The notes beneath the pieces were generated by a model. The model had not been told where the DNA came from and did not search any database. It worked only from the letters and a program-made list of their open reading frames with translations. From Sipunculus nudus (taxonomy: Eukaryota; Annelida; Sipuncula; Golfingiida; Sipunculidae), in NCBI GenBank assembly GCA_026874595.1, contig CM049316.1, positions 9,290,839 to 9,354,838 on the forward strand: a DNA stretch of 64,000 bases, read 5' to 3'. Below are positions 4,401 through 58,317 of this stretch, piece after piece; the stretch's first letter is position 1; each line of letters starts with the position of its first letter. A program made the translations under genes and the position numbers.

Positions 4401-4615
4401 GTGGATCATACTTCATATTATGTTGATATATCAATAAATATTAATTTATCATTATGTATCCGTTAAACATTGTGTTCTTCCCATTATAGATTGGATATTG
4501 TATGTTTGTTTGATGCAGCCAAAATAATGTATTTTTAGGATACTGGTATTGCCTTAGTGATATAGTCAGATAGACCGTATGATTTGACTTTGAATTATTC
4601 TGTGTTTAATTTCAG
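1479..4615. other. intergenic sequence upstream of LRR gene 1
   Basis: AT-rich sequence without convincing coding signal. ORFs of 60-135 codons here (for example 2800-3207 minus and 2924-3199 plus) overlap on opposite strands and show no domain or splice support. The 5' non-coding exon and promoter of LRR gene 1 should lie here or upstream of the window, because the coding exon begins right after a splice acceptor at 4614-4615. Confidence 0.5.
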
Positions 4616-4616
4616 G

Positions 4617-7600
4617 ATGGCGTTCTACATGTTCGTCCTTGTTATGGTCCATGTGTTACTGATCCTGGGCCCAACACAGGGTCAGACAAGCCAGTGTCCA
4701 TCCGGGTTACCTGATACCTGTAAATGTGAAGGAAAGAGACTCTCGTGCGTCGCTGTGGGGCTCACAGAGATGCCGCCACCTGACCTAATGACAGGATTCA
4801 CTACCATAGAGCTGGACCATAACTCGATTCAGTTTATACCCAAGTTATCATACCCCAGTGCTGTGAGTCTGAGTATTTCATATAACAGGATCCAGAATAT
4901 CTCAGACGGGGCTTTTAGTGAGCTGACCTCTCTGAATCATTTATACCTTGTTGGTAATAAACTGACCAAACTTAGAGCCAAAATGTTTACAGGACTTGGA
5001 AACCTTCACAGCCTCAGCCTGGCATCCAATCAGATCAAAGAAATCAACCCACATGACCTTTGTCCTGGACGTCTGCAGAATCTGAGAGAGCTGGTCCTCT
5101 CCAGCAATCACATTGAATCCCTCAATAAGAAAGACACTTTTGGGTTTAAGAATCTGAGTAAAATATATTTGAGCCACAATGGGTTAAAAACTGTGCCATC
5201 AAATGCCTTTACTTTTGCCAGCTCATTGAAAGAAATGCATTTGGATCATAACGATATTTCACACATCCCTGCTGAGGCTTTTAAATTTTTCACGGGCTTG
5301 CAGCTATTGAACCTGGACACTACAGGCCTAGCCTCATTAGAAGACGACACCTTTGTTGGTTTGACGCAACTGACAGAACTCGATTTAGGTAACAACAAGT
5401 TGACAGACATTTCCTCGAATGTCCTGAGACCCTTGGATAAATTGCAGAAGCTACATTTACAGAACAACCAGCTGAGCTCACTAAACTGGGAAGCGTTTCC
5501 ATGGATACAGCTCAAGGAGGTCCGACTTGGAAACAATCCATGGACATGTAATTGTAAAGTACACTGGATGAATTCAGCAGGCCTCGGACATAAAGACCAG
5601 GAAAATGTCACGTAAGTAATGGTTATATATATATACATACAGTGAAACCCCAAACTTAAGACCACCAATAGGGCGTCAATAAAGTGGTCATCTGACCAAG
5701 GTCTGATATAAAGAGCAGAAAATAATTGGGTCCTTGAAAAAGTTGTTGTCATTTTGAGGTGATCACTAAAATGAGGTGTCCGTTAGGGGAGGCTTTACTG
5801 TATTCTCAAAATGCCATGACCTTGCTGCTGTTTCAAATGTCTGCTGAAGTTTTGCTGAGGACAGACAAAGATTCCTCATGAAGCTATTATACACACTGTT
5901 TATGTCTGTCAGGTTCATGTGGTGTTGAAGTTTCAGTGGTCTCCAGCTTTCAATGACCTGTTTCTTTTGTCAGGGGCAAAATAAGGTGTGGGTTAAATGT
6001 GACTATATGAGTTGATTGTTTCTAAACATGTTAGAAAATAACCAATCAGTTTATCCAGGTAACTGATCCACAGGTGCAGTAAACAGAAATTAAATAAAAA
6101 AATAAAAAAACATAATTTTCAATTGGAAAAATGAAATTTTCAATGACTGATGTTTGTACAGTGGAGAAGTATTTAAAACTTAATTGAAGCACTCTGAATC
6201 CGTGAACCTCCCAATGAATCAAATACAGTATCTTTAGTTAATGAAACAATACACCAGTTTAGTCCCAACTTCCATATGGGAAGAGTCTGTTAACCACGCC
6301 ATGATAATACACAGTTTATCTTTAGATGATATCTTATCCTTGGATTCACCTGCTCAAGGACTTCATGGTTCCCATGCATTCCATATCCTCGATGCTGAGT
6401 CATTGATACATGTGTATTGGTCCAAACTGGACCTAATGTTGTTTTGGACTGGACCACCAGGGGGCAGGAAGTCCAAGTCTGCATCTATAGATATACACAA
6501 TCTAAAGGCATAATTAAAACCAGTATAATAACACCACTGTAGGAAAACCTTTCAATTTTAATATAATGTGATATGATTTGTATTGAGGGTTATAGCTGAT
6601 TTTTTTGGTACTAAATAAAGTCTTCAGACCTAGTTATGCCTGGTTGATGATATTTTATTGCATTAAATGATTGAAAATAAAAATCAAGCTCTTTCAAGTC
6701 ATATTCAGTCAGTATAAAAAGTATAGTAAAGTGATTAAACCATTTATATTGTCAGTTAATAGAATAAATATAAAATGAAATACATTTTCAGTTATTCAAA
6801 ATTGATAGGCATCCATACCAGTTAGCTGATATCCTATTAGCCAAGAAAGCATTATATTGGATCTGGTATTGCATATCTTATCTAAAATATTTGAAGTTTT
6901 CTAAAAGTAGAAATGACCCTTTCTTCTCCTGAATTAAGTCCTCCAATCCCATCTGAATCAGGGAATTTAATGAGAACTGATAGATATTTGTATTGATAAC
7001 AAACTGTAGAATTTCACAATGGTTTGTAAATAGTTCATTAATTTTCATTTTTTTTCTCTTTTTCTTGAAATATTAATTTTGTGCCATGTTAAAATCAGGA
7101 AAAGTTTTTTGCTTGAACCTGTTTAAGCATCAAGTTGCATTAATTTCCTTTGGAATTTATAGAAAAATAAATTCTTGTGAACTAAAGAATGGATCAATGA
7201 ATAAAATCCTTGATGTGGTCCATACTGTGTATTATCCAAGGTATAATGTACAAGGTGTATCATTCAATCTGAGTAATAATTTAGTGTTGATTGTTGTTTC
7301 AGCGTGTTATAAAATGACCTACCTTAATTCTGTTTTTCATTTTGTTCCACACAGGTGCACCAGTCCACCTGAGTATAACAGTCAGTCCTTGTTCAACGTG
7401 ACCATGTTGTTACGATGCAAGGATAAAAACCGGTCCGGCACGCTGGCCATCGCCATTGGTATCCCCATCCTCATCATCTGTGTCCTCCTCCTCATCTTCT
7501 TCATTTACCGTGCGATGAAGACGCGTCAGAGCGACAAGCGCAAGTCTGTCAGGTACAGTGCCGTCTACAGGGATACTGTGGAATCGAAACACGATCCTAC

Positions 7601-24887: not shown

Positions 24888-26650
24888 GGTTTAAACAATA
24901 TTTTTATTGCAAAACAAAGCAATGAGGATTGGAAAACAGGGCACAGCCCTATATCAATTCCTCTCCTCCATCAATATGTTATTAAATAATCCTCTGTATG
25001 AAACACATTTACATTGTTACATTATGCTGTTGATACATGGATTACGTAATATGGCATACAACTGACATAAATATGTTAATCTATATTTACACCTGAGCAA
25101 TACAAGCAAAGACTAAACAAGATAAAATAAATTATTTACAATTGGAGAACAATACCTTATATAATTTATATAATTTACTAACCTCTAATATTTCCCAAAT
25201 TCAAATTTACTTAAAACGTTTAGTTGCCACTATAAACCGCTGTATATTATCAAAAAGTTCACAATTCTCTGTTACAGACAGATTATTGCTTCCATGTAGT
25301 AAGATATATTCACTTCTGTACTGCATTGATACCTTCGTAAAGAGTTCTTCTCTCATATTCACATAAAGGGGGCAATACAAAAAATAGTGCTCAGGGGTCT
25401 CTACCGCGAGACCACAAGAGCAAAGCGGATTTTCTAAACAATGGTTTTTAAATAAATGCCCATTCAGGGAGCTGTGACCAAGACGCATTCTTGTATGATG
25501 TATTTGTGCCTGTCGGTTACCCATGTACTGACTGTAATATTTGGGGGGCTTCTGCAAATTTCTTTCTAAATTTTTCCTGAAAATTGAGACGGATGGGCTG
25601 TTTCTTGTAATTGGATCTAACGTATTCCACAAACAAGTCGTTGATAAAAGGAAACTGTTTTGCCGTAAAGACGTACGAGCTGCTGGCGGACGCAGATTAT
25701 ACTTGTTACGCAATTCATATCCATTGCTTCCAACCTCATCAGGTAATAAGTCGCACATATATGGTGGTGCCAACCCATTTACCATTTTATAGAACAAAAT
25801 AAGCTTTTTAATACTCCGTCTCTCACTTAGTAGTTGCCATCCTGTTTCTTTGTAAATTAAATTGTGACTGGTGCCCTTTATTGCACCAGTCACTATTCTC
25901 GCGGCACTCAGTTGAACTGATTCAATTTGACGTACTAGAGCCTCATTGCACCCATCCCACAGTTCACAAGCATATTCTAAGACAGGCCTAATAAAAGAGA
26001 GATACAAAATTTCCAAAGCATCCTATCTAGTCTATACATAAGTGATCTCATGACATCTATTCGCCTACTGGCTTTTTCGCAAATATAATTTATGTGATCT
26101 TTCCACGTGCAACGTTCGTTCAAAATAACACCCAAATGTTTGTGATTCGACACCGATAGAAGCGGCTGTCCTAGCATTGATACAGGCGGTATTGTTACAG
26201 TTCTCCTGGTGAAAGTTAACATTTCTGTTTTTCGAGGATTAAATGTGACGAACCATTTCTCAGCCCATTTCTCAATAGATAACAAATCATTGGTTAGGCT
26301 CTTAGACATACTTTCCATGTTTCTCCCTACATTAAATATTGAAGCGTCATCCGCATACAGTCGGATGTTGGTGTTTACACATTCTACCATATCATTGAAA
26401 TATACTAAGAACAGCAGCGGGCCCAGTATTGAGCCCTGTGGGACGCCAGCTGGAACATGCATGCAGGATGAGGAATGACCATTTATCACTACTCTTTGCA
26501 TTCTGTTATACAAATAATCAGAAAACCATTTAAGTAAATTACCTTGAACACCCATTTTACTTAGTTTAAATATAAGGCCCTCGTGCCATACCCTGTCGAA
26601 TGCATTTGATGCGTCCAAAGATATAAATATAGTTTCATTTTCCGAATCAA
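24888..26650 (-). mobile_element. 5'-truncated Jockey/CR1-type LINE insertion
   Basis: A 1763-bp insertion bounded by 12-bp direct repeats, with its 3' end at the left (AATAAA signal on the minus strand near 24900). It carries the RT and C-terminal part of ORF2 only; the reading frame is open right up to the truncation point at 26650, as expected for 5' truncation during target-primed reverse transcription. Confidence 0.8.
25207..26650 (-). pseudogene. LINE ORF2 fragment: reverse transcriptase and C-terminal domain, frameshifted
   Basis: Segment 26650-25977 starts inside RT motif A (ISLDASNAFDRVWHEG) and includes GVPQGSILGPLLFLVYFNDM and the catalytic YADD (RLYADDASIF). Segment 26016-25207 continues with LSFIRPVLEYACELWDGC, the thumb, and the tail LGHSSLNGHLF..., which contains a C.CG...EHYFLYCP zinc-knuckle-like motif. 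A frameshift near 26010-26025 separates the two. The endonuclease domain is missing through truncation, so the copy cannot be autonomous. Confidence 0.8.
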
Positions 26651-34404: not shown

Positions 34405-36427
34405 ATGGACCTGACACAACTGGCATTCCATTTGCTGCTGATCCATCTCCTGTATGACCCATTATCTGCGGGATGTACCGGTGACTCCCGGTGCGCATGT
34501 TACGAGGATGGAGTTATACGGACGTGCATCACGGACGAGCTGACGGATGTCCCGCAGGATCTCCCGCATAATATTACCATCCTTCATATAGAGGGCCACA
34601 ACATGCCAACAATCAGCGCCGTACCTTATCCGAACCTTGTCACTCTTGTGTTAAGAAATAATAGCATGGTTAATATAAATCCTGGTGCGTTTGGCGAACT
34701 ATCAAAATTACACCAGTTAGTACTTACCGATAATAAAATTAAAAATATTGACCCGGAAATGTTTGTGAACCTTTCGTCACTGACCTTACTGGCGCTAAAC
34801 GGAAACCCTCTAAAGGAGTTAAAGAGCGGGACTTTCAATGGAGACTTCCTTCATAATCTACAGGTCCTTGATTTGACTAACACATCTCTAGAAAGAATTG
34901 AGAAGGGCAGCTTTATGAATTTAAAAAGTCTTGATGACCTAGTTTTAGCGGGAAATAAGCTCGGCAGTGTCCCTTTGATGGGAGAATCTGATTTTCCTAA
35001 TCTCAGGGTATTTAATCTGACCGGAAATGAGATTCTCCAAGCTTCCGGTCACCCATTTCAGGCAGTGCCACATTTACTTAATCTTCATATGAACAAAAAC
35101 GGTTTACGGCATATATTTAGCGACACGTTCACGGGGTTAACGAAACTCACACATCTCAACTTGGCACAAAACAATCTCAGGACAGTACCGCCGAACGCTT
35201 TGAGTGTATTAACTAATCTTACACATCTTGATTTGAGCTCAAATAACTTCCGGATCCTTGAACACGATAGAGTACCTAGACATCTTGAAAAATTATATTT
35301 GTACGATAATCCCTGGCACTGCGATTGTATAACAAAATGGATTCGTGTGGACCTGATATCTCTCTCCACGAACACGGGGACAAATTTCACGTGAGTATTT
35401 GTCATTTTGAAAAATTATGATCTAGTAATAATAAAATAAGGCCCATATCAGAGTGCAATAGGAAGTAAAGACCCTAATCAAATTTTGGTGTGTCGTATAC
35501 TTAAGCCTAGAGAAATGTGTGTCACGGTTCAGGAACCCGATGGCTGCATCACAGGTAAGCTCTGGAGATACGATCACATTGCAGACGGGAGAAATTTTCA
35601 CAGTGATCGGAAATTTCGACTTGATTTTCCTAAGGAAAGTTAATGGCGATGACGCCGCCTTAAATTCGAGAGGAACCAACGTTGTAAAAGCATCTCGTAA
35701 TCAACAATCCTAATATTTTATGATCCAGGTTGACTCAAAATGTTAATGGATCATTTTTTGGGCATTACTCGAACCCTCCAAAAATTTAATCAAAATATAA
35801 AGAATTCATTTTGACTCAGTTTGTGAACAGACAAACTAACCAACTGACGACGGCAAAATCCCAGCGAAGGTATAGTAAATACAAAATGTGGTAGCTTGAG
35901 TACAACTATTATGTACCTACATATCACTATCAGAGTGTACACAAACATGTATAGTGTATACTTCTGTAGAGTAATAAATTTATAACACATACAAATATAT
36001 AGTAATTCATATTTAACATATTATCTTTATATGCCCTTTACTTAAATATAAAGGTACTGGGTGCTTGGGCGTTTTGTTTTTGAGGAGACAGTTTGAGATT
36101 CACTATATGACCCATGTATATCTTTCTTTAATAGACAACTCTTTAAAGCTCGTGATCTTTGTTTTCAGGTGTGCAAGTCCCCACATCTTAGCGGGACATC
36201 CGGTACTTTTACTTAAGGCATCAGTTTTCATATGTCCGCATGGGTCAGTGCATCAAGCCAGGCAGAAAATGTGGATGGCAATGACAGTCATAATTGTTTT
36301 AGTCGTCGCTGCTACGGCAACGTATATGACGTACTCGGTGCGTAGACGGCGCCGCCTGGAGCGCCAGAGCGGAACTACAGTCCCTTACTCCCGCGTGATC
36401 GAGGAAAAAGACATGTTCAGTATATGA
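34405..36427 (+). CDS. LRR type I membrane receptor (gene 2), two coding exons
   Basis: Coding exons 34405-35390 and 36169-36427 give 414 residues. The ATG lies eight bases after an acceptor (AG at 34395-34396), so a 5' non-coding exon exists upstream. The donor is TTCAC|GTGAGT and the acceptor is GTTTTCAG; the phase-2 intron sits directly before LRRCT Cys330, as in gene 1. Seen: signal peptide (about 1-22), a short Cys-rich LRRNT, about ten LRRs, LRRCT starting NPWHCDC, a TM segment at about 363-384, and a short Arg-rich tail (RRRRR). The tail contains VPYSRV (400-405), matching the ITIM consensus and aligning with VRYSAV in gene 1. Expected role: cell-surface recognition or adhesion receptor. 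No kinase or TIR domain is present. The ligand is unknown. Confidence 0.85.
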
Positions 36428-39211: not shown

Positions 39212-39266
39212 ACTGAATGGCGGCCTTTTGTAGTAACGAGCCATTTGATGCATATATATGGCGCGG

Positions 39267-42200
39267 TCAGTGTGCCGGAAACGCTTCATCAGACCGGATC
39301 TCCATCTTGTGTGACGTTACGGTGAACTCTTCCGGCACATCGCTGAAAGGTCGGCAACCATGGAACTCAAACGTGTTGATTCTGACGCTGGATATTGATT
39401 GAAAACCGGTCTCTTTGAGTATTTGCTAAAAATGGATGAAAAGAAATTGTAAAGCTTTTTAATAGTGATACTGATTCTGCAAAAGAATATATTCATTATT
39501 TTGATTCATTACATCCATAGAGAATACACGCCAACCCTGGAGTCATACTGTTAATTCTGGTGATCAAGAAGTATATATTAAAGTATATCTGATGGAAACA
39601 TGGATCCACTTAATGTTAAAGCTATCGCTTCACCTACCCTTTCTATAGAACTCTTGGCATACATATTGATGAACTAGGCCAACCCTTTTCAGAAAAGTCC
39701 TTATAAAGCCTCTGTGACAGATGTACGCGTATGTTTTTCTACAAGATGTTTGTGGACACAGCATTGTTGACAAAGGAAAAACTATATGTTACCCAAGGTG
39801 GCTGGTTGTGTATGTACGGAAATTGAAAGGTCGATCATTAGTTGCAAAAGATCCTTTACAAAACTCTGGTTTGTCCGACGTGCTGCCATTTGGATGATTT
39901 TGGCGGGTACCACACATATTATACGTGGATAAAGACAAAACGAACAGTTTGTGTGCTGCGGGATCGGCGTTGTTCGGCCTATTTTATAGAAGGTTCAAGA
40001 GATTATCTTTAGTTGATGACATACCGAAATAGATATCTTTAAAAAAATTGACCTTACATTGAACCAATTATTGCTCAAACGGCGAGTGATGAGAAGCCTT
40101 TCACTTTCATCATAAAAAAACCGTGGTCATTACTGGCACTTTGGCCCAGTCAGTATGCTTTACCATCGCTGTATGGTAGCACCGAAACCTGTGTGGGACG
40201 GTCGTAGGTACAGCTATCTGGCGGTAATCTATATAACTAATAACTCGTCTTGCCATCTGACATAAGCATGAACCAGAAGTTTCAGAAGTTATGTCAATGG
40301 GAGAAGCTGGTCCGGGTGGACACAAAGGTTCAACTAGAGTCTGATCCGAACAAAACGACTTAGAGACTAAACATTATAAGATGAACTCGGGAAGATGCAC
40401 AGCTCAAAGATAAACTTCACCTGAGAAACCGGGTTGATGGTGATTGCCACAATCCACTTAATTTTTCCTGATTTCTTTGCAGAAGTAATTGGATTCCGAA
40501 CGAGGCCTTTGAGAATTTTATCGGAATCTTCAGCCGACAGGTCCTTACTTGTCCCCATGTGCAACATAATCATCACATTGTCTGCTGGACAGATTAAATC
40601 GGCGTGGAGAGGCCGAACTGCTTCATCAAACAGAGCCCGGGCAGCCTCATTGGACGAGCTGGCACGCAGCAGGTCCAAGTGACCATTGACTATGATCCCG
40701 GCGGCCAACAGCTTACCAGAAGATACATCATGAACAACTGTAGGAAACATAAACGTATAATACCTGAACGAAGAACCAAATCAAGAAAAGTTTATCTATG
40801 TGCATGGTAAGGAATATTGTCTAACAGATTAAATTACTTGTATTAAGATGTTAAAAGATAAGGACACAGAGTACATTAATTAAACGACAACATACAGGCT
40901 GCTCTCTACATTATTAAGTTTGGTATTATTAGTACTCTATTGCGAAGTAATTATAGAAATTCATTGAACGACTGACCATATTGTAAAATTGAAGGACATT
41001 TATTATGAAAAGATGGAGCGAATATTCCCATATGTCAGTAAGCATCGTTTTTTTATAGACTTAATATTTATTGTGGTACAGTTTAAAACTTTGAAATACA
41101 CTTCGAATTGCAAATCAGAACTCCTTGCCTAACCTTCAGAGACAAAGCACAACGTTTACTTATCTCACCAACAGAGAGTTTGCTTTCCACTGACGCCTCC
41201 CAAAACAAGGCTGGGTCGGGGTAGGGTCGCCCTGAGATCCTGACCAAGTTTCGGATAAACGGATTTTTCTCTTCATGTGAGACCTGGAGAAACTGGATCA
41301 CATCTCTGGCAGCTGTTTGACTGTGTAGCGGGACAACCTTCAAATGATCAGGGGCCTCACCTTCTCCTTGGGCATTGATCAAGCCCTTTGAAGCAACAAG
41401 GTTGATAACCTCTTTGACTGTTTTAGTATGCATGAAATCCGAGAAAGACACCCTCACATGGTAGTCTCTCAACATCATCCACAGTCTGTACAAATGCATA
41501 GAATTAGCTCCCATGTTTTCGAGTACTTCATCGGCTGAGATGTCGGACAGGGGCACATGGAGCAGTTCAGATATGATATGGAAGACCCTTGATTCCATGC
41601 CCGATTTCGAGTCTGTCTTCTCTCGATGTATGTCAAGTCTTTCTTTGTACCTTTTCTTCAATGCTTCGATATCGACCTTTCCACCTGGCAACCTAGGCAG
41701 TGAGCTAATGGAATGCAACCTTGGCCACATATAATATGGAAGCCTCTGCTTGCAATGTGCCAAAATGTTATTACTATCTGGACTTGCTCTCGTTGAAACT
41801 GTAAAGTAAGCAACTACAAATGTTTCGTTTGGAGTGTCATAGCCAAAAGCCGCTGCTCTGTCGACACCAGCACATTCTTCGATGGCTTTTTCAATTTCAA
41901 TTGTACTGATTCGCATCCCATGGACTTTCAACATATACTTCTCACGACCCCTAAAATAAAATTTTCCGTCTCTTATCAACCCAAAGTCACTGGTAAGGAA
42001 CATTTTGTCATGGCCAGGCCTTGGGCAGATGGTGTTTGTAATAATCGAGTTGGACTCATGACCCAAGTAGCCAGAGAACACGCTAGGTCCACTGATAGCG
42101 ATGCGACCCATTTCTCCGGTCGGAGCACACGCCAAATCTTCATTTAGAATGTATACCACCGTGTTTTCAATCACTTCATCAAATGCTGCTGTGTTGTTTA

Positions 42201-43829
42201 CTATATTCGAAAGCCCTTTCTCTCCACCCAAAATCCCAAAGGACACCACGGACGATGTCTCAGACATGGCGTAACTGTTAACGAGTCGCACACCATTATT
42301 TAAACAATTGATCCAATTTTTGGCCAAATTTGCGGACACCATCTCCGCGCCAACTCCTATCACTTCTAGAGTTTCCAGTGTTTTATGACAATCTGATGAG
42401 TGAAGGTACCAATACATGCCTTGAAGTAACTGCGGCGCCACGCCCCACACATGAGTCACCCGGTGTCGTCCCAAAAACTCAACAAGCTCTTCAGGGTGCT
42501 TTTTCATTTCATCGTTGATGAGCACCTGGGAGGCTCCGTGCAACAACGGGTAACAAAATTCATTAGGAAATGCAACAGTCCGGAATGTCAAGAGTGAGGC
42601 GAACTTGGAATACTTGTTCGCACGGAAATATGAATGTTGGCCTTGGAGACACGCCAGTAAGTTGCGATGTGTCAGCGGTACTGCCTTTGGTTTCCCCGTG
42701 GATCCAGAAGTCATAATTATCACAGCTACAGTCTCCTCTGGACATTTGTTACTGATCATTTCGTCTGGTTTGATCGGGCATCCGTCTTTGTTACTCTGTA
42801 GTTCGAGAGGGTTTTGCACGTGAAAATGTTGCACGGGAACTCTAAAGCTAAGTTTCTTACAAATGACGGCGTTTCTTTCGTCGTGTATGATACACATGGG
42901 CATGGTCGTGTCGAGTGCATGTTCTAAAATGTTAGAGGGCAGGACTGGATCAAGGGGTAAGTACGCAACTCCAAGTTTCCACAAAGCCAGAAGAACAAAG
43001 ATTCTCTCCAGCCCAGTTGACATGAACACGGCCACATTAGGCGGTGCAGCTTTGAAGAACTGTGGGTCATTCTCTGCAGCTTTTGCAATGTGCTCTCTTA
43101 TTATTCTGGCCAGCCGATTGGTAGTTGTTTTTAACTCGGAATATCTCACTCTTCTCCCTTGGTATTCTATGGCAACTTGTTGTCCTAGACTTGGTGCTTC
43201 CTTCGAAAAAAAAGTCATTTGGATTTATGTGTTCTGTAAGACTTATTAAGGCATGGTTTCTTTACTTGTTCTACAGAACTTATTCAAGCATGTTATATGA
43301 GATGGTATGTGACAGTTGGCTTTCTAAAATATAAATATAGCATGTTGATAGAGGAATGTTATCAATTACAAATGGGTCAGAACTTTTATTTGACAATATC
43401 TCTTTTAACTTGATTGGGAAAGGGCAGTTAAGATAATGTATAGCAAATTCATATCATTATGGCAACCAATACTCAAAACCCGTAACTCATCTGAGGTGAT
43501 ACAACAAATCATTGGGTATGCGTGAGGTAAAACATAATGTATACATATGGCGTAAGGACAATTTACATGACGCTTGAATATTGTGAAAGGGAATCTATAT
43601 ATAATAGCCTTAAAAGTTATAGAATTCGGTTTCTGCCCATTACATGCAAGAATGGATGTAAATACTTTATAAATTCCTCAAGACTATATTTAATGAACCA
43701 AATCCTGTGTGAAACAAACTTTTCCGAATCTGTACTTACGTGAATGTTTCTCTCGATAATCCCGTGGAGATGCCCCTCCATGATATCCCGGTGATCACCA
43801 ACCATTATACCATTACTGCCCGTGCTCAT
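39267..43829 (-). CDS. Ebony-like NRPS-like enzyme (adenylation, carrier, acyltransferase), four exons
   Basis: Minus-strand exons 43829-43740, 43200-41169, 40737-40421 and 39425-39267 join in frame to 865 residues, close to insect Ebony (about 880). Exon 1 (donor CAC|GTAAGT) supplies the LHGIIERNIH segment that completes the adenylation N terminus; an internal Met at 43218 lies in the intron. Seen: A3 loop TSGSTGKPK (about 194-202), A5 NSYAMSET (338-345), A7 TSDF (433-436), A10 PGGKVD (535-540), carrier motif GANS with Ser597, then a C-terminal domain across exons 3-4 containing LHMGTSKDLSAED, NPVSQQ and CRPF. That domain resembles the GNAT-like amine-condensing domain of Ebony. Known of the family: beta-alanine is activated, loaded on the phosphopantetheine arm and joined to dopamine or histamine in the cytosol. 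The substrate here is inferred. Neighbour: a broken duplicate at 53835-58317. Confidence 0.85.
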
Positions 43830-48092: not shown

Positions 48093-51000
48093 TCAGTTGA
48101 TTGAGCAACAAATTGGAATTGGAATTGGAATCATTCCAAACAGAATAACAGTAATTTCATAGTCTGGGAAACTTAAATTGCATGATTTCATCCGAGACTG
48201 TATTTGAAGATATAAATTTCTAGAGACGAAACATTCATAAAAAAGGTGTGTAATTGTTTCGTCGTAAAGGTGACAATATGAACACCGTGGACTGCCAACA
48301 AGTTTCCACTTAAATAGCCAGTAGTTTACTGGTAAATAATTATGTATGATTTTGAACTGAAACTCTCTGCTATACATATCGAGAGAAACTTTATGTACTG
48401 TATAATAAAACTGTTTAAAATCTTCATAACTATGTAATCCTGTAATATCTAACCAATTAACCAGAGTAGTTGGTGTGGTGGTTCTCCGACTGATCAAAAA
48501 TTTATATACCCAGTTAGATGTAATATCTGATAATCCCTTTATTCCTGCCAAAGTAACCAATCTGTCCTCCCTACTTTCTCTGTCATTTGTTTTTTCGCTT
48601 GGTGTTGACTTGCACAAACTAATCCACTATTTTGGTATTGCACTTATCATAGACCTCCACGACAGATATGTATTACTTGATAATTCCGGGTATCTAGTTT
48701 TAATCTCTTGCCATGTGCAGACTTTACCAGTATCATTTAAAAAATCTTGTACTCTCCTAATACCCAAGTTGTCAAAATATCTGTAGAAAAAGATGTATTG
48801 TTGACCTTTAAATAATAGTTATTCAATAGTGGTTGCATTCTAACTTCTTCTACCGATATTGGACTTCTTTTAACAAAATGTGACCACTCTTTTAAACAGT
48901 TTTTATAAAACACTGGTAGCTTTCTGGGTATTCTTGTCACATCAAAATTAGAGGTTATTGAGCAAGTGCCTCCCAAAGAGTATAAATAATGTTGTGAAAC
49001 ATATTTCCATGGCATATCTTTTCCATCTATTAATCGTCTAATCCACATAATACATTTATTCCTCCCATATTATAAGGTCCAATGAGAGTATCATATTTAA
49101 TCTTTGGTCTCTTGCCTTTCCACAAAAAAATGCTTTAAATGCATTTTAACATTTTCAATAAATCCTGCAGGTGGGATGCACATGTTACACACATATAATA
49201 TTTTTGGCAAAGCCAAAGTTCTACATATTTCATTGCGACCAAATATTGTAAGATTCCTGCTAGACCAGATATTGAGCACCACCTTCAGTTTTTCTTCCAC
49301 TGAATGAAAATTAAGCTTTTTATTTAAATCGTTATTGTATGTATACCATATACTAAGTATTTTCATGGCTGTAACAGTAAGGTTGACCCATTTGCAATTC
49401 ATTGGCTTTTCATTCTTCCTTTTCCATGCACCAAGCCAAGCAGCTTCCGATTTATCATAATTAACATGCAATGTAGAGAACTCACAAAATGTTTTCAGAA
49501 TATTTATAAGTGATTTAAATGAATCTACATCAGACAAGAAAAATGTAATATCATCAGCAAAGGCTGTCAGTTTAACTTCCTTGTTGCCAATCATTAAACC
49601 TTTTACCCTTCTCTCTGCTCTAACCATATGCAATAATACTTCAATGACCAGCATAAATAGGTATGGAGATATTGGGTCACCTTGTTTCGTTCCTCTAGAT
49701 AAAGGGAAATAATTAGTTGAAAATCCATTATTCAAAACACAACTTTGTGACCCTGTGTGTATCAACTTAACCCAGTTTATAAACATAGGTCCAAATCCAA
49801 AACGTTTCAATACAGAAATTACAAAAGTGTGATCAACAGAATCAAATGCTGCTGTAAAATCTGCACCAAATAATATTCCATACTTGTTTTCAATATTACA
49901 ATATTCAATCATATCAGAAATTAGGCGAACTGAGTTTCCAATATATCTCCCAGGAACAAAAGCATTTTGATCTACATGAATCAATTTGTCTATGACTTTA
50001 CTCAAACGAGCCACTAATATCTTACTCAACACCTTAGTGTCCACATTTATTAGACTTATAGGACGCCATGACTGTATGAGTATGACATCCTTCTCTGTTT
50101 TTTCTATCAGAGTAATTACATTTTGTTTTTGACTTGTTGTTAACTCTCCAACATTAAAACATTCATTCAGACAAGTTGTCAATTCTTTACCTAATACACT
50201 GAAAAAACATAAATAAAACTCCTTACTAAGACCATCATTTCCCGGTGTCTTATTATTACCCATAGCTTTCACAGCTTTATATACAGAGTTCATTGTCACC
50301 ATACCTTCACACAGTAAGGCATCATCTGTCTCTAATACTGGCAAATTGTCTATGCTATTTAACCAGTCATCACATTCCTCTTGATTTTTACCTGTTAGTC
50401 CTTTAAATCTATCAGAATAGAACTTATTAATATGTAATAATATATCCTTTTGATTTGTAAGTTCCTTACCGTTTTCTATCAACTTCCTAATACATGATTT
50501 ATTCTTGTTTCTTTTTTCAAGGTTTACAAAATATTTACTATTACGCTCACCATGCTCAAACAATTGAGCCCGAGATCGTATTATAATGCCTTCTGTAATT
50601 TTGTCATAACAGACTTCCAATTCTTTCTTCAATTTTTCATAATTCTTGAGGTTTACTTCATTAGGATGTTTATCTATTATGTTTTCTAATCGTTGTACCT
50701 CTTTTTCAAGTGACTGGTAATGATCTTTGAACGTTTTGTTCATTTTCTTTGAATAATTTATAGTAAACTTTCTGACACTGTATTTTAAGTATTCCCATTT
50801 TCTGCGAGCATCCAGGGACATCTGATCCGCTTCTTTTTTAATAGTAACAATATATTCTTTCATCTTGCTTACATACTCAGAGTCATTAACAAGGGAGCAG
50901 TTAAATATCCAAAACGAAGGACCCCGGTTCTCATCTTTCAAACTCTTTATAATAAGTTCCACAGCTGAATGATCTGAACCTACGCTAGTTTTAATGTAAC

Positions 51001-51772
51001 ATTCTGAAATAACTGGTTGTAAAGCAGAGGATACCAAGAAGAAGTCTAATCGTCTTTGTGTTAGTGGAGAAAACCTTCTCCATGTAAACCTGCTCAGTTG
51101 TGGATTACAAATCCTCCAAACATCACACAGATCTAACGCTTCCATAAAATTCTTAGTAGTCTTGTACTTTAAACTAAGATTACCTCCATAGGCATCTTCT
51201 TTAGCAAAGCAAAAGTTGAAATCCCCCCCCCCCCAACTTATATGTGTGTTTTCCTCAAGTTCAAAATATTCAACAACCATCCTGTAGATTCCCTTATAAC
51301 ATAAAATTTGTTCTGTTTCAGTATTTGGTCCATATACATTAATCATTAAAAACTGCGATCCTTGAATAATACAATGCAGCATGACATATCTTCCATCTGG
51401 GTCAATTTTACTTTTTATTAACGAGAATTCAAGTTTAGAACCAACTAAAGTGAGTGTACCTTTTGATTTATTTGTTCCATGAGAAAAGAAAGAGTGACCC
51501 CTCCATTGATGTTTCCATACCTGTTCACACTTAGCATCAGAATATGACTCTTGAATGAAACAAATACCTTTATCCATGTCATGTTTATAACACCAGTTAA
51601 ATAGTTTTCTTCTTTTTACATAATTCCTAATTCCATTTGCATTAATACTTATCACTTTAAAATCTAAATATGTATCTTTTTCTGCAGTTTTAACCGTCAC
51701 TTTACTACAAAGTGTGTAATTAAATATAATGTCAATGAAATCATATCCAAGAGAATGAACTGACATTTGCAT
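48093..51772 (-). pseudogene. LINE ORF2: AP endonuclease and reverse transcriptase, broken at the 3' end
   Basis: The frame is open from ATG 51772 to 49097 (891 residues). It contains an AP-endonuclease domain (VISINANGIRN, FIQESYSD, GGGDFNF, GSDHSAVE) and a reverse transcriptase (RPISLINVDTKVLSK, motif A FGADFTAAFDSVDH, GTKQGDPISPYLF, catalytic FADD). Beyond that the frame is broken by shifts near 49115, 49050 and 48765 and a TAG near 48635. Similarity continues as MWIRRLIDGKDMPWKY (49048 on) and ends in a C-terminal zinc-knuckle-like CSYCHLYDETITHLFYEC (about 48255). The layout and ORF1 type fit the L1/Tx1 group. Catalytic residues are present in the intact part, but the C-terminal lesions should abolish full-length protein. 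Confidence 0.88.
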
Positions 51773-53834: not shown

Positions 53835-56800
53835 TCAGTGTGCCGAAAACGCTTCGTCAGACCGGATCTCAATCTTGTGTGACGTCACGGTGAACTCTTC
53901 CGGTACATCGCTGAAAGGTCGGCAGCCATGGTACTCAAACGTGTTGATTCTGACGCTGGATATTGACTGAAAACCGGTCTCTTTGAGCATTTGCTGAAAA
54001 TGGATGAAAAGAAATTGTTCAAGGTTTTTAAAAATTATAATGATTCTGCAAAAAAGAATACATTCATTACTTTGCTTCATTACATCCACAGATAATATAC
54101 GCCAACCCTGGAGTCATACTGTTAATTCTGGTAATCAAGAAGTAGATTAAATTGTCTCTCATGAAAACATAGATCTACTTAATGTCGCCTTACCTACTCT
54201 TTCTATAGAACTCTTACTCTGCATACATATTGATGAACTAGGTAAGCCCTTTTCAGAAAAGTCCTTATAAAGCGTTTGTGTATGTACAAGATGTTAGTAA
54301 ACACAGCAATGTTGACAAAAGAAAAACTATGCAAATCAAGGTGGCTGGTTGTATATATTTGCGGAACTTGAAAGGTCGATCATTAGTTGCAAAAGTCCCT
54401 TTACAAAACTCTGGTTCGTCTGACTTGCTGCCATTTGGATGATTTTGGCAGGTACCATACATATTATACACACAAGGATATAGACAAAACGAACAGCTTG
54501 TGTTCGGTGGGATCGGCGTTGTCTCGCCTATTTTACAGAAGGTTCAAGAGGTTACCTTTAGTAAAAAAAAAGTCACACACCGGAATAAGCATCTTTAAAA
54601 GGAAAAGCTCTCTGTCACGTTCACCATTAACAAACCGTGGTCATTACTGGCACTTTGGCCCAGTCGGTATGCTTTATACCATCGCTATATGGCAGCACCG
54701 AAACCTGTGTGAGACGGTCGTAGGCAGAGCCATCTAGCGGTTTTCTATATAACTAATAATTCTCGTCTTGCCATCGAAATCAACATGAACCAGAAGTTCA
54801 AGTAGTTACGTCAATTAGAGAAGCTGGCCCGGGTGGACAAAACGGGTTCAACTAGAAATTCGTCTGATCAGAACACAACAACTTTATATTTAACCTCCAG
54901 GTATTTGCACAGCTCATAATAAATCATCACCTCAGACACTGGGTTGTTGGTGATTGCCACAATGCATCTAATTTTCCGGATTTCTTTGCAGAAGCAATGG
55001 AATTCCGAACGAGGCCGCGGAGAACTTCATCGGAATCTTCAGCCGACAGGTCCTTACTTGTCCCCGTGTGCAACATAATCATCACATCGTCTGGTGGAAC
55101 GATTATATTGGCGTGGAGCGGCCAAACTGCTTCATCAAACAGGGCCCGGGCAGCCTCATTGGACGAGCTGGAACGCAGCAGGTCCAAGTGATCCTTGACT
55201 ATGATCTGGGCGGCCATCAGCTTACCAGAAAATACGTCATGAACAACTGTAGGAAACATAAATGTATAATAACTGAACGAAGAACCAAATTAAGAAAAGT
55301 TAATTTAAGCATAGAAAACAATATTGTCTAACAGATTAAATTACACGTACTTGTATTGAGATGTAAAAAGATAAGGAAACAGAGTACATTTAGAGCTCTG
55401 TCTTCCCAAGATAATTAAGTTTGGTATTATTAATACACTATTTTGAAGTGATAATAGAAATTCATTGACCATAGTGTAAATTTTTAAGGACATTGGTATA
55501 AAAAGATAAAGCGATTATTCCCTTATGTCCGTAAGCATCGATTTTCTTAGAGAATAAATTTTCGTATTGAACAGTTTAAACAAAACTTTCAATTACACTT
55601 CGAATTGAAAATCAGAACTACTTGTCTAATCATCAGAGACGCGGCAAAACGTTTACATATCTTACCAACAGAGAGATTGCTTTCCACTGACGCCTCCCAA
55701 AACAAGGCTGGGTCGGGGTAGGGTCGCCCAGAGATCCTGACCAAGTTTCGGATAAACGGATTTTCCCTTCATGTGAGACCTGGAGAAACTGGATCACATC
55801 TCTGGCAGCTGTTTGACTGTGTAGCGGGATTACCTTCAAATGATCAGGGGCCTCACCTTCTCCTGGGGCATTGATCAAGCCCTTTGAAGGCACAATGTTA
55901 ATAACCTCTTGGACTGTTTTAGTATGTATGAAATCAGAGAAAGACACCCTTACATGGTAGTCTCTCAACATCATCCACAGTCTGTACAGATGCATAGAAT
56001 TAGCTCACATGTTTTCGAGTACTTCATCGGCTGAGATGTCGGATAGGGGCACATGGAGCAGACCAGATATGATATGGTAGACCCTTGATTCCATGCCCGA
56101 CTTCGAGTCTGTCTTCTCTTGATGTAGGTCAAGTCTTTCTTTGTACCTTTTCTTCAATGCTTCGATATCGACCTTTCCACCTGGCAACCTAGGCAGTGAG
56201 CTAATGGAATGCACCCTTGACCACATATAATATGGAAGCCTCTGCTTGCAATGTGCCAAAATGTTATTACTATCGGGACTAACTCTCGTTGAAACTGTAA
56301 AGTGAGCAACTACAAATGTTTCGTTTGGAGTGTCATAGCCAAAAGCCGCTGCTCTGTCGACACCAGCACATTCTTCGATGGCTTTTTCAATTTCAATTGT
56401 ACTGATTCGCATCCCATGGACTTTCAACATATACTTCTCACGACCCCCTAAATAAAATTTTCCGTCTCGTATCAACCCAAAGTCACTGGTAAGGAACATT
56501 TTGTCATGGCCAGGCCTTGGGCAGATGGTGTTTGTAATAATCGAGTTGGACTCATGACCCAAGTAGCCAGAGAACACGCTAGGTCCACTGATAGCAATTC
56601 GACCCATTTCTCCGGTCGGAGCACACGCCAAATCTTCATTTAGTATATATACCACCGTGTTTTCAATCACTTCATCAAATGCTGCTGTGTTGTTTACTAT
56701 ATTCGAAAGCCCTTTCTCTCCACCCAAAATCCCAAAGGACACCACGGACGATGTCTCAGACATGGCGTAACTGTTAACGAGTCGCACACCATTATTTAAA

Positions 56801-58317
56801 CAATTGATCCAATTTTTGGCCAAATTTGCGGACACCATCTCCGCGCCAAATCCTATCACTTCTAGAGTTTCCAGTGTTTTATGACAATCTGATGAGTGAA
56901 GGTACCAATACATGCCTTGAAGTAACTGCGGCGCCACGCCCCACACATGAGTCACCCGGTGTCGTCCCAAAAACTCAACAAGCTCTTCAGGGTGCTTTTT
57001 CATTTCATCGTTGATGAGCACCTGGGAGGCTCCGTGCAACAACGGGTAACAAAATTCATTAGGAAATGCAACAGTCCGGAATGTCAAGAGTGAGGCGAAC
57101 TTGGAATACTTGTTCGCACAGAAATATGAATGTTGCCCTTGGAGACACGCCAGTAAGTTGCGATGTGTCAGCGGTACTGCCTTTGGTTTCCCCGTGGATC
57201 CAGAAGTCATAATTATCACAGCTACAGTCTCCTCTGGACATTTGTTACTGATCATTTCGTCTGGTTTGATCGGGCATCCGTCTTTGTTACTCTGTAGTTC
57301 GAGAAGGTTTTGCACGTGAAGATGTCGCACGGGAACTCTAGAGCTAAGTTTCTTACAAATGACGGCGTTTCTTTCGTCGTGTATGATACACAAGGGCATG
57401 GTCGTGTCGAGTGCGTGTTCTAAAATGTTAGAGGGCAGGACTGGATCAAGAGGTAAGTAAGCAACTCCAAGTTTCCACAAAGCCAGAAGAACAAAGATTC
57501 TCTCCAACCCAGTTGACATGAACACGGCCACATTAGGCGGTGCAGCTTTGAAGAACTGGGGGTCATTCTCTGCAGCTTTTGCAATGTGCTCTCTTATTAT
57601 TCTGGCCAGCCGATTGGTAGTTGTTTTTAACTCGGAATATTTCACTCTTCTCCCTTGGTATTCTATGGCAACTTGTTGTCCTAGACTTGGTGCTTCCTTC
57701 GAAAAAAAAGTCATTTGGATTTATGTGTTCTGTAAGACTTATTAAGGCATGGTTTCTTTACATGTTCCACAGAACTTATTCAAGCATGTTATATGAGATG
57801 GTATGTGACAGTTGGCTTTCTAAAATATAAATATAGCATGTTGATAGAGGAATGTTATCAATTACAAATGGGTCAGAACTTTTATTTGACAATATCTCTT
57901 TTAACTTGATTGGGAAAGGGCAGTTAAGATAATGTATAGCAAATTCATATCATTATGGCAACCAATACTCAAAACCCGTAACTCATCTGAGGTGATACAA
58001 CAAATCATTGGGTATGCGTGAGGTAAAACATAATGTATACATATGGCGTAAGGACAATTTACATGACGCTTGAATATTGTGAAAGGGAATCTATAGCCTT
58101 AAAGTTATAGACTTCGATTTCTGCCCATTAAATGTTATAATGAATATAATTACTTTATAAATTCCTCAAGACTATATTTAATGAACAAAATCCTGTGTGA
58201 AACATAACTTTTCGAACTTGTACTTACGTGAATGTTTCTCTCAAAAATCTCGTGGATATGACCCTCCATGACATCCCGCTGATCACCAACCATTATACTA
58301 TAACTACCTGTGCTCAT
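53835..58317 (-). pseudogene. duplicated Ebony-like gene with nonsense codon and two frameshifts
   Basis: Exons match copy 1: 58317-58228 (90 nt), 57696-55666 (2031 nt), 55246-54931 (316 nt), 53993-53835 (159 nt). Splice sites are retained and in places better (GTTG|GTAAGA). Three lesions are visible. GGA to TGA at 56007-56005 replaces Gly594, three residues before the carrier serine. One base is missing in exon 2 near 55758-55767, and one in the exon 3 A-run near 54970-54978; both show as exon lengths one base shorter than in copy 1. Exons 1 and 4 remain open. A translated product would stop after 593 residues, leaving a complete adenylation domain without carrier or transferase. I call it a pseudogene, but an adenylation-only protein cannot be excluded. 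Confidence 0.85.

Follow-up and report, generated by a model that had tools for sequence, protein, structure and literature searches.

Does the Ebony-like reading frame on the minus strand of a Sipunculus nudus contig belong to one complete gene, and would that gene encode a beta-alanyl-amine synthase? Enzymes of the Ebony type act on amine signals, which they either inactivate or generate: dopamine and histamine in flies, and a reproductive signal in flatworms (PMC11214079). We analysed a window of 64,000 nucleotides of contig CM049316.1, together with the rest of the assembly. The reading we favour, with a probability of roughly two in three, is that of a complete, selected gene predicted to encode a single-module Ebony-family enzyme, which forms a divergent sister lineage and whose acid donor would not be beta-alanine.

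A complete four-exon gene

A first-pass annotation of this locus had proposed a gene of four exons encoding 865 residues with all phases kept. Splicing these exons (Table 1) gave a single minus-strand frame of 865 amino acids with one terminal stop and matching phases. All introns are of the GT-AG type (GTAAGT...GAAG, GTGAGA...ACAG, and GTGAAG...TTAG), and the layout recurs in a neighbouring copy (copy C, see below), confirming that the window gene, hereafter copy A, is a single complete four-exon gene. The annotation was also right in that the long frame starting at 43218 is not the whole protein: this 711-amino-acid open reading frame (ORF) starts inside intron 1 and reads on into intron 2, and is therefore an unspliced artefact. 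Exon 1 is the weakest of the four. Its length and phase equal those of exon 1 in copy C, to which it shows 38% protein identity (E 2.0 when searched alone), its residues 22-30 align with the N terminus of an NRPS adenylation domain, and it is the least conserved exon between both copies (dN 0.61 over 30 codons). At the other end of the gene, a 61-amino-acid frame on the plus strand (39217-39402) overlaps exon 4 and looks like its shadow, as had been suggested: of the 9 sites in this exon at which copies A and B differ, 7 are third positions of the minus-strand frame.

Table 1. Features of copy A and of its broken tandem copy (positions in the window)
Feature	Position	Strand	Remarks
Exon 1	43740..43829	-	30 codons, residues 1-30; ATG at 43829; phase-0 donor GTAAGT; matched by a 30-codon phase-0 exon in both tandem copies, B and C
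Exon 2	41169..43200	-	residues 31-708, last codon split, phase 1; adenylation and carrier domains, first part of C domain; 3' end at 41169 with donor GTGAGA
Exon 3	40421..40737	-	middle part of Ebony-type C domain, up to residue 813
Exon 4	39267..39425	-	52 codons and TGA; end of C domain, residues 814-865
Candidate polyadenylation signal AATAAA	39206..39211	-	55 nt beyond the stop codon
Pocket residues V239, A240, N243 (GrsA 235, 236, 239)	42562..42576	-	five relatives on C4/C16 have Asp236
Pocket residues S339, S347, V348 (GrsA 322, 330, 331)	42247..42276	-	five relatives on C4/C16, and L045, have Asp331
Lys538 (GGKVD)	41677..41679	-	conserved GK column of the A10 motif; from alignment
Ser597 (GANS), predicted phosphopantetheine attachment	41500..41502	-	carrier domain; arm on Ser597 follows from the family
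Tandem copy B, pseudogene	53835..58317	-	exon counterparts 58317-58228, 57696-55666, 55246-54931, 53993-53835

Domain order and an Ebony-type C-terminal domain

In the spliced protein, Pfam recognised an AMP-binding domain at residues 37-409 (174.4 bits), an AMP-binding_C domain at 465-533 barely above its cut-off (24.8 vs 24.5 bits), and a PP-binding domain at 569-631 (35 bits, cut-off 20.8), i.e.: an adenylation domain followed by a carrier domain, the order that characterises the Ebony family. Lys538 presumably corresponds to the catalytic K517 of GrsA, the aligned GrsA stretch ending at 340. No Pfam domain was found beyond the carrier domain, and the canonical condensation domain of classical multi-module NRPSs, which we take to be PF00668, was absent among the five Pfam families matched at E up to 1.

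We searched residues 643-865 alone against 177,635 PDB sequences and obtained the C domain of Drosophila Ebony as top match (6dym, E 6.6e-4), with the runner-up at 0.31. A profile built from five C domains of this genome (those of copy A, copy C, one gene on contig C4, and two on C16) matched Ebony at 5.8e-25, the next hit (9.3e-8) being the A654L protein, which we take to be a viral GNAT. The C-terminal domain is homologous to the Ebony condensation domain, as in members of the family, and would adopt a GNAT fold judging from the solved Ebony structure. The first-pass annotation had claimed this domain order and C-terminal domain, and had proposed searching the spliced protein against Ebony and NRPS-like families; both claims stand, with the adenylation and carrier domains identified by Pfam and the Ebony C domain ranking first in PDB. 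Among prokaryotes, none of 50 pattern matches to the single window C domain, a query that reaches close relatives only, proved to be a relative.

The similarity to Ebony depends on the gene model. With the letters of the Ebony C domain as sole query, the full model scored 21.9 bits, falling to 5.0 without exon 4 and to 6.9 without exon 3, while the best of 2000 shuffles (1302 reported) reached 7.6 bits and the variant with exon 2 only had no reported score. The similarity thus requires both exon 3 and exon 4, as well as their joins, since removing either exon takes it down to shuffle level. A weaker control with four reference rows showed the score rising with each exon (9.1 bits at first, 33.6 or 28.7 next, and 66.4 at the end, vs 11.3 for the best of 2000 shuffles, 1427 of which were reported), yet is partly circular, because three of these four rows had their last exons identified by resemblance to exon 4 and related exons. 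The control with Ebony letters only is free of this circularity, and we do not use the four-row version as main support.

Tandem copies and selection

The lineage counts three copies in tandem, of which one is dead. Copy B lies in the window in a block that aligns with copy A at 88% DNA identity. Its carrier motif is interrupted by an in-frame TGA, and exons 2 and 3 have each lost 1 nt, lesions that make it a pseudogene. Identity between A and B is 97.5% in exon 2 and 96.0% in intron 1, against 75.4-94.3% in seven other segments, and this step suggests gene conversion between both copies. Copy C, beyond the window, has an intact frame of 859 codons. Its exons measure 90/2029/317/141 nt, its introns are GT-AG, and its phases equal those of copy A, to which it is 74.6% identical over residues 31-707. 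Comparison of A and C over 858 codons yielded a dS of 0.58 and a dN of 0.18 (dN/dS 0.31), pointing to purifying selection between them. By domain, dN/dS was 0.27 for adenylation, 0.25 for the C domain, and highest, 0.46, for the carrier domain.

The surroundings contain other elements. Three minus-strand ORFs related to reverse transcriptases (25977-26618, 48093-48617, and 49097-51772; RVT_1 and zf-RVT), the last two of which sit between copies A and B, are probably non-LTR retrotransposons. Near the gene there are also two dispersed repeat pairs of about 79% identity (36798-37410/45419-46000 and 38264-38912/46992-47598). Leucine-rich-repeat genes (Pfam LRR_8) are found on the plus strand at 4584-5615 and 34405-35394, with an LRRCT piece at 36065-36427, and perhaps form a local family.

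Relatives elsewhere in the genome

A protein search of the whole assembly returned at least 45 matches; 52 of 108 candidates were scored, and the counts are lower bounds. Beyond the tandem copies, the best matches listed fall on two chromosome-size contigs, C4 (two matches) and C16. Here we read five ORFs (L040 and L041 on C4; L042, L043, and L044 on C16) and a split C16 gene, L045. The last intron is equal in place, phase 0, and of GT-AG type in L040, L041, L042, and L043; the last exon was not found for L044 or L045. Adenylation domains from C4 and C16 are 24-26% identical to that of copy A (tblastn). The C4 relatives have no intron at the first two intron sites of copy A, and hold the adenylation domain, the carrier domain, and most of the C domain within one ORF. 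These genes, as well as copies B and C, were missed by the first-pass annotation.

In a tree of adenylation domains, copy A, copy C, and L045 grouped together (97/97), and did so again (96/96) in a second tree built without the Drosophila Ebony row and four long rows. Next to this group stand the genes of C4 and C16 (90/91 and 93/93), which makes the lineage of copy A a divergent sister to the conserved-pocket Ebony-like genes of this genome. Support for joining C4 to the Drosophila Ebony row in the first tree was just 82/81, too low to show the C4 genes to be orthologues of Ebony.

Some further loci are worth recording. Between its adenylation domain and a carrier-like remnant, the C16 gene L043 (2055-4892 of its locus) shows a long repetitive coil-like stretch (read by eye). 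Very long open frames with adenylation-domain matches occur on chromosome-size contig C1 (78473190-78785913; L024-L028, L030-L034, and L036), ten of the 11 measuring 1242-2534 amino acids and one 716, and a 1923-amino-acid frame of this kind lies on another chromosome-size contig (C3:77172635-77177521; L023 and L037). These long frames are candidate multi-module NRPS genes. AMP-binding domains in intronless 650-amino-acid frames with near-equal scores were found on contigs such as C61, C62, C64-C66, C69, C72, C75, and C89 (L002-L008). Such frames make up 10 of 14 scored matches, their contigs measure 0.35-3.3 Mb where a size is given, and they probably represent bacterial symbionts or contaminants in the assembly. 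A Tan-type partner (PF03417) was also sought and discarded: all six genome matches lie on C61, C62, C89 (two), C90, and C115, and none on chromosome-size contigs, in an exon-by-exon search that could miss a split gene.

The acid pocket lacks the aspartate pair

We established pocket positions from one multiple alignment that included a 108-residue stretch of GrsA (1amu letters). At GrsA positions 235, 236, 239, 278, 299, 301, 322, 330, and 331, copy A reads VANWGGSSV and copy C VGNWGGCSV (G236 and V331). W278 is less sure, because one extra residue follows that column in the window rows. Both C4 ORFs, which are near-identical, read VDVTMNLAD, and the three C16 ORFs IDTVVSLGD, IDSLVSLGD, and VDTVVSYGD; for Drosophila Ebony we assume VDAVVSFGD. 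We take the pair Asp236 and Asp331 to mark beta-alanine use and to define the Ebony family. Copy A has Ala and Val at these positions, while five of the six further Ebony-like genes that we read here keep the pair. The sixth, L045, is the nearest other relative and has Ala at 236, Asp at 239, and a retained Asp at 331 (read by eye), so that the pair may have been lost in steps, and what its loss means could vary from member to member. A stated beta-alanine pocket code was not found in the literature searched, including the accessible parts of PMC10758118, PMC12186527, and PMC3630128.

With both aspartates absent, beta-alanyl conjugating activity should not be assumed for copy A. The first-pass description of an Ebony-type amine-conjugating enzyme thus holds for structure and family (domain order and C domain), and needs narrowing for function. 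The donor is probably other than beta-alanine and perhaps an acid without an amino group at the usual anchoring place; that Gly at 299 and 301 would give space for a larger acid is speculation.

Proposed reaction and alternative readings

Following the known chemistry of the family (PMC11214079), the adenylation domain would activate a carboxylic acid with ATP, the activated acid would be loaded onto the phosphopantetheine arm at Ser597, and the Ebony-type C domain would transfer it to a free amine, yielding an N-acyl amine. We infer from sequence that the window enzyme is catalytic and, from the family, that the acceptor is a monoamine.

An ordinary beta-alanyl-amine synthase, in which residues other than Asp236 and Asp331 hold the amine of beta-alanine, would have the domain order and C domain seen here, as Ebony does, and would retain the lysine of activation and the serine of loading. 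We nonetheless consider this unlikely: both aspartates are replaced in copies A and C and retained in five of six other Ebony-like genes read, and the change sits in a gene under apparent purifying selection. That selection also bears on whether copy A is decaying toward loss with a relaxed pocket, as a broken neighbour and the raised dN/dS of the carrier domain could indicate. Copy A is free of lesions over 865 codons with GT-AG introns, however, and its adenylation and C domains show ratios of 0.25-0.27 against an intact copy C, values that average both lineages and so still leave room for very recent decay; we hold decay to be very improbable. Least credible to us is that the exons represent two genes or are spliced otherwise, the C-terminal part being separate, since Ebony similarity spans the joins of exons 2, 3, and 4 and falls to noise without exon 3 or 4, copy C has a matching layout, and the C4 relatives carry nearly the whole architecture in one ORF.

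The favoured reading, a divergent Ebony-family enzyme with another donor, can be extended. At somewhat less than even odds, these genes may represent a separate animal Ebony-like branch in which beta-alanine has been abandoned and an acid lacking the usual amine anchor is turned into N-acyl amines of a class not yet described, the branch having expanded and turned over in tandem through birth, gene conversion, and pseudogene formation. If true, a sister enzyme with an altered acid pocket beside Ebony-like genes with a conserved one would offer a natural experiment on how the donor changes, and could point the way to amine conjugates not known so far. The result is a sound gene with a testable substrate change, and not a new kind of system.

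Comparison with known systems

Drosophila Ebony, with 879 amino acids, resembles the window protein in length and in its single module of adenylation, carrier, and atypical C domains, but differs in the pocket (V-D-A...G-D vs V-A-N...S-V). AASDH/ACSF4 has other C-terminal domains, PQQ-like repeats, whereas the window protein has no further Pfam domain past its carrier. Likened by description only, this beta-alanine-activating enzyme is also an animal single-module acid-activating enzyme (PMC10531068).

Ebony-clade adenylation domains are reported from Platyhelminthes, Annelida, Priapulida, Hemichordata, Nemertea, Cnidaria, and Branchiostoma in PMC10531068, and a planarian Ebony-like enzyme in PMC11214079, so that finding an Ebony relative outside arthropods is in itself no novelty. 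PMC10531068 also describes molluscan NRPSs found by antiSMASH as sharing a clade with echinoderm ones, apart from the Ebony clade; no mollusc Ebony was found in the literature searched, which does not show absence from print. Ebony is mentioned or cited in PMC9151784, PMC8072286, PMC12943608, and PMC8097023. Novelty may lie in the changed pocket beside conserved relatives within one genome, of which we found no report in the literature searched, comprising few subscription papers and no query aimed at pocket change.

The flatworm NRPS that makes beta-alanyl-tryptamine (Schmidtea and Schistosoma), likened by description only, is Ebony-like outside arthropods and uses beta-alanine, beta-alanyl-monoamines being made by both Ebony and the flatworm enzyme (PMC11214079). 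Within the same genome, the C4 (L040, L041) and C16 (L042, L043, L044) genes share a homologous adenylation domain with copy A, and four of the five its last intron, but unlike copy A they keep Asp236 and Asp331.
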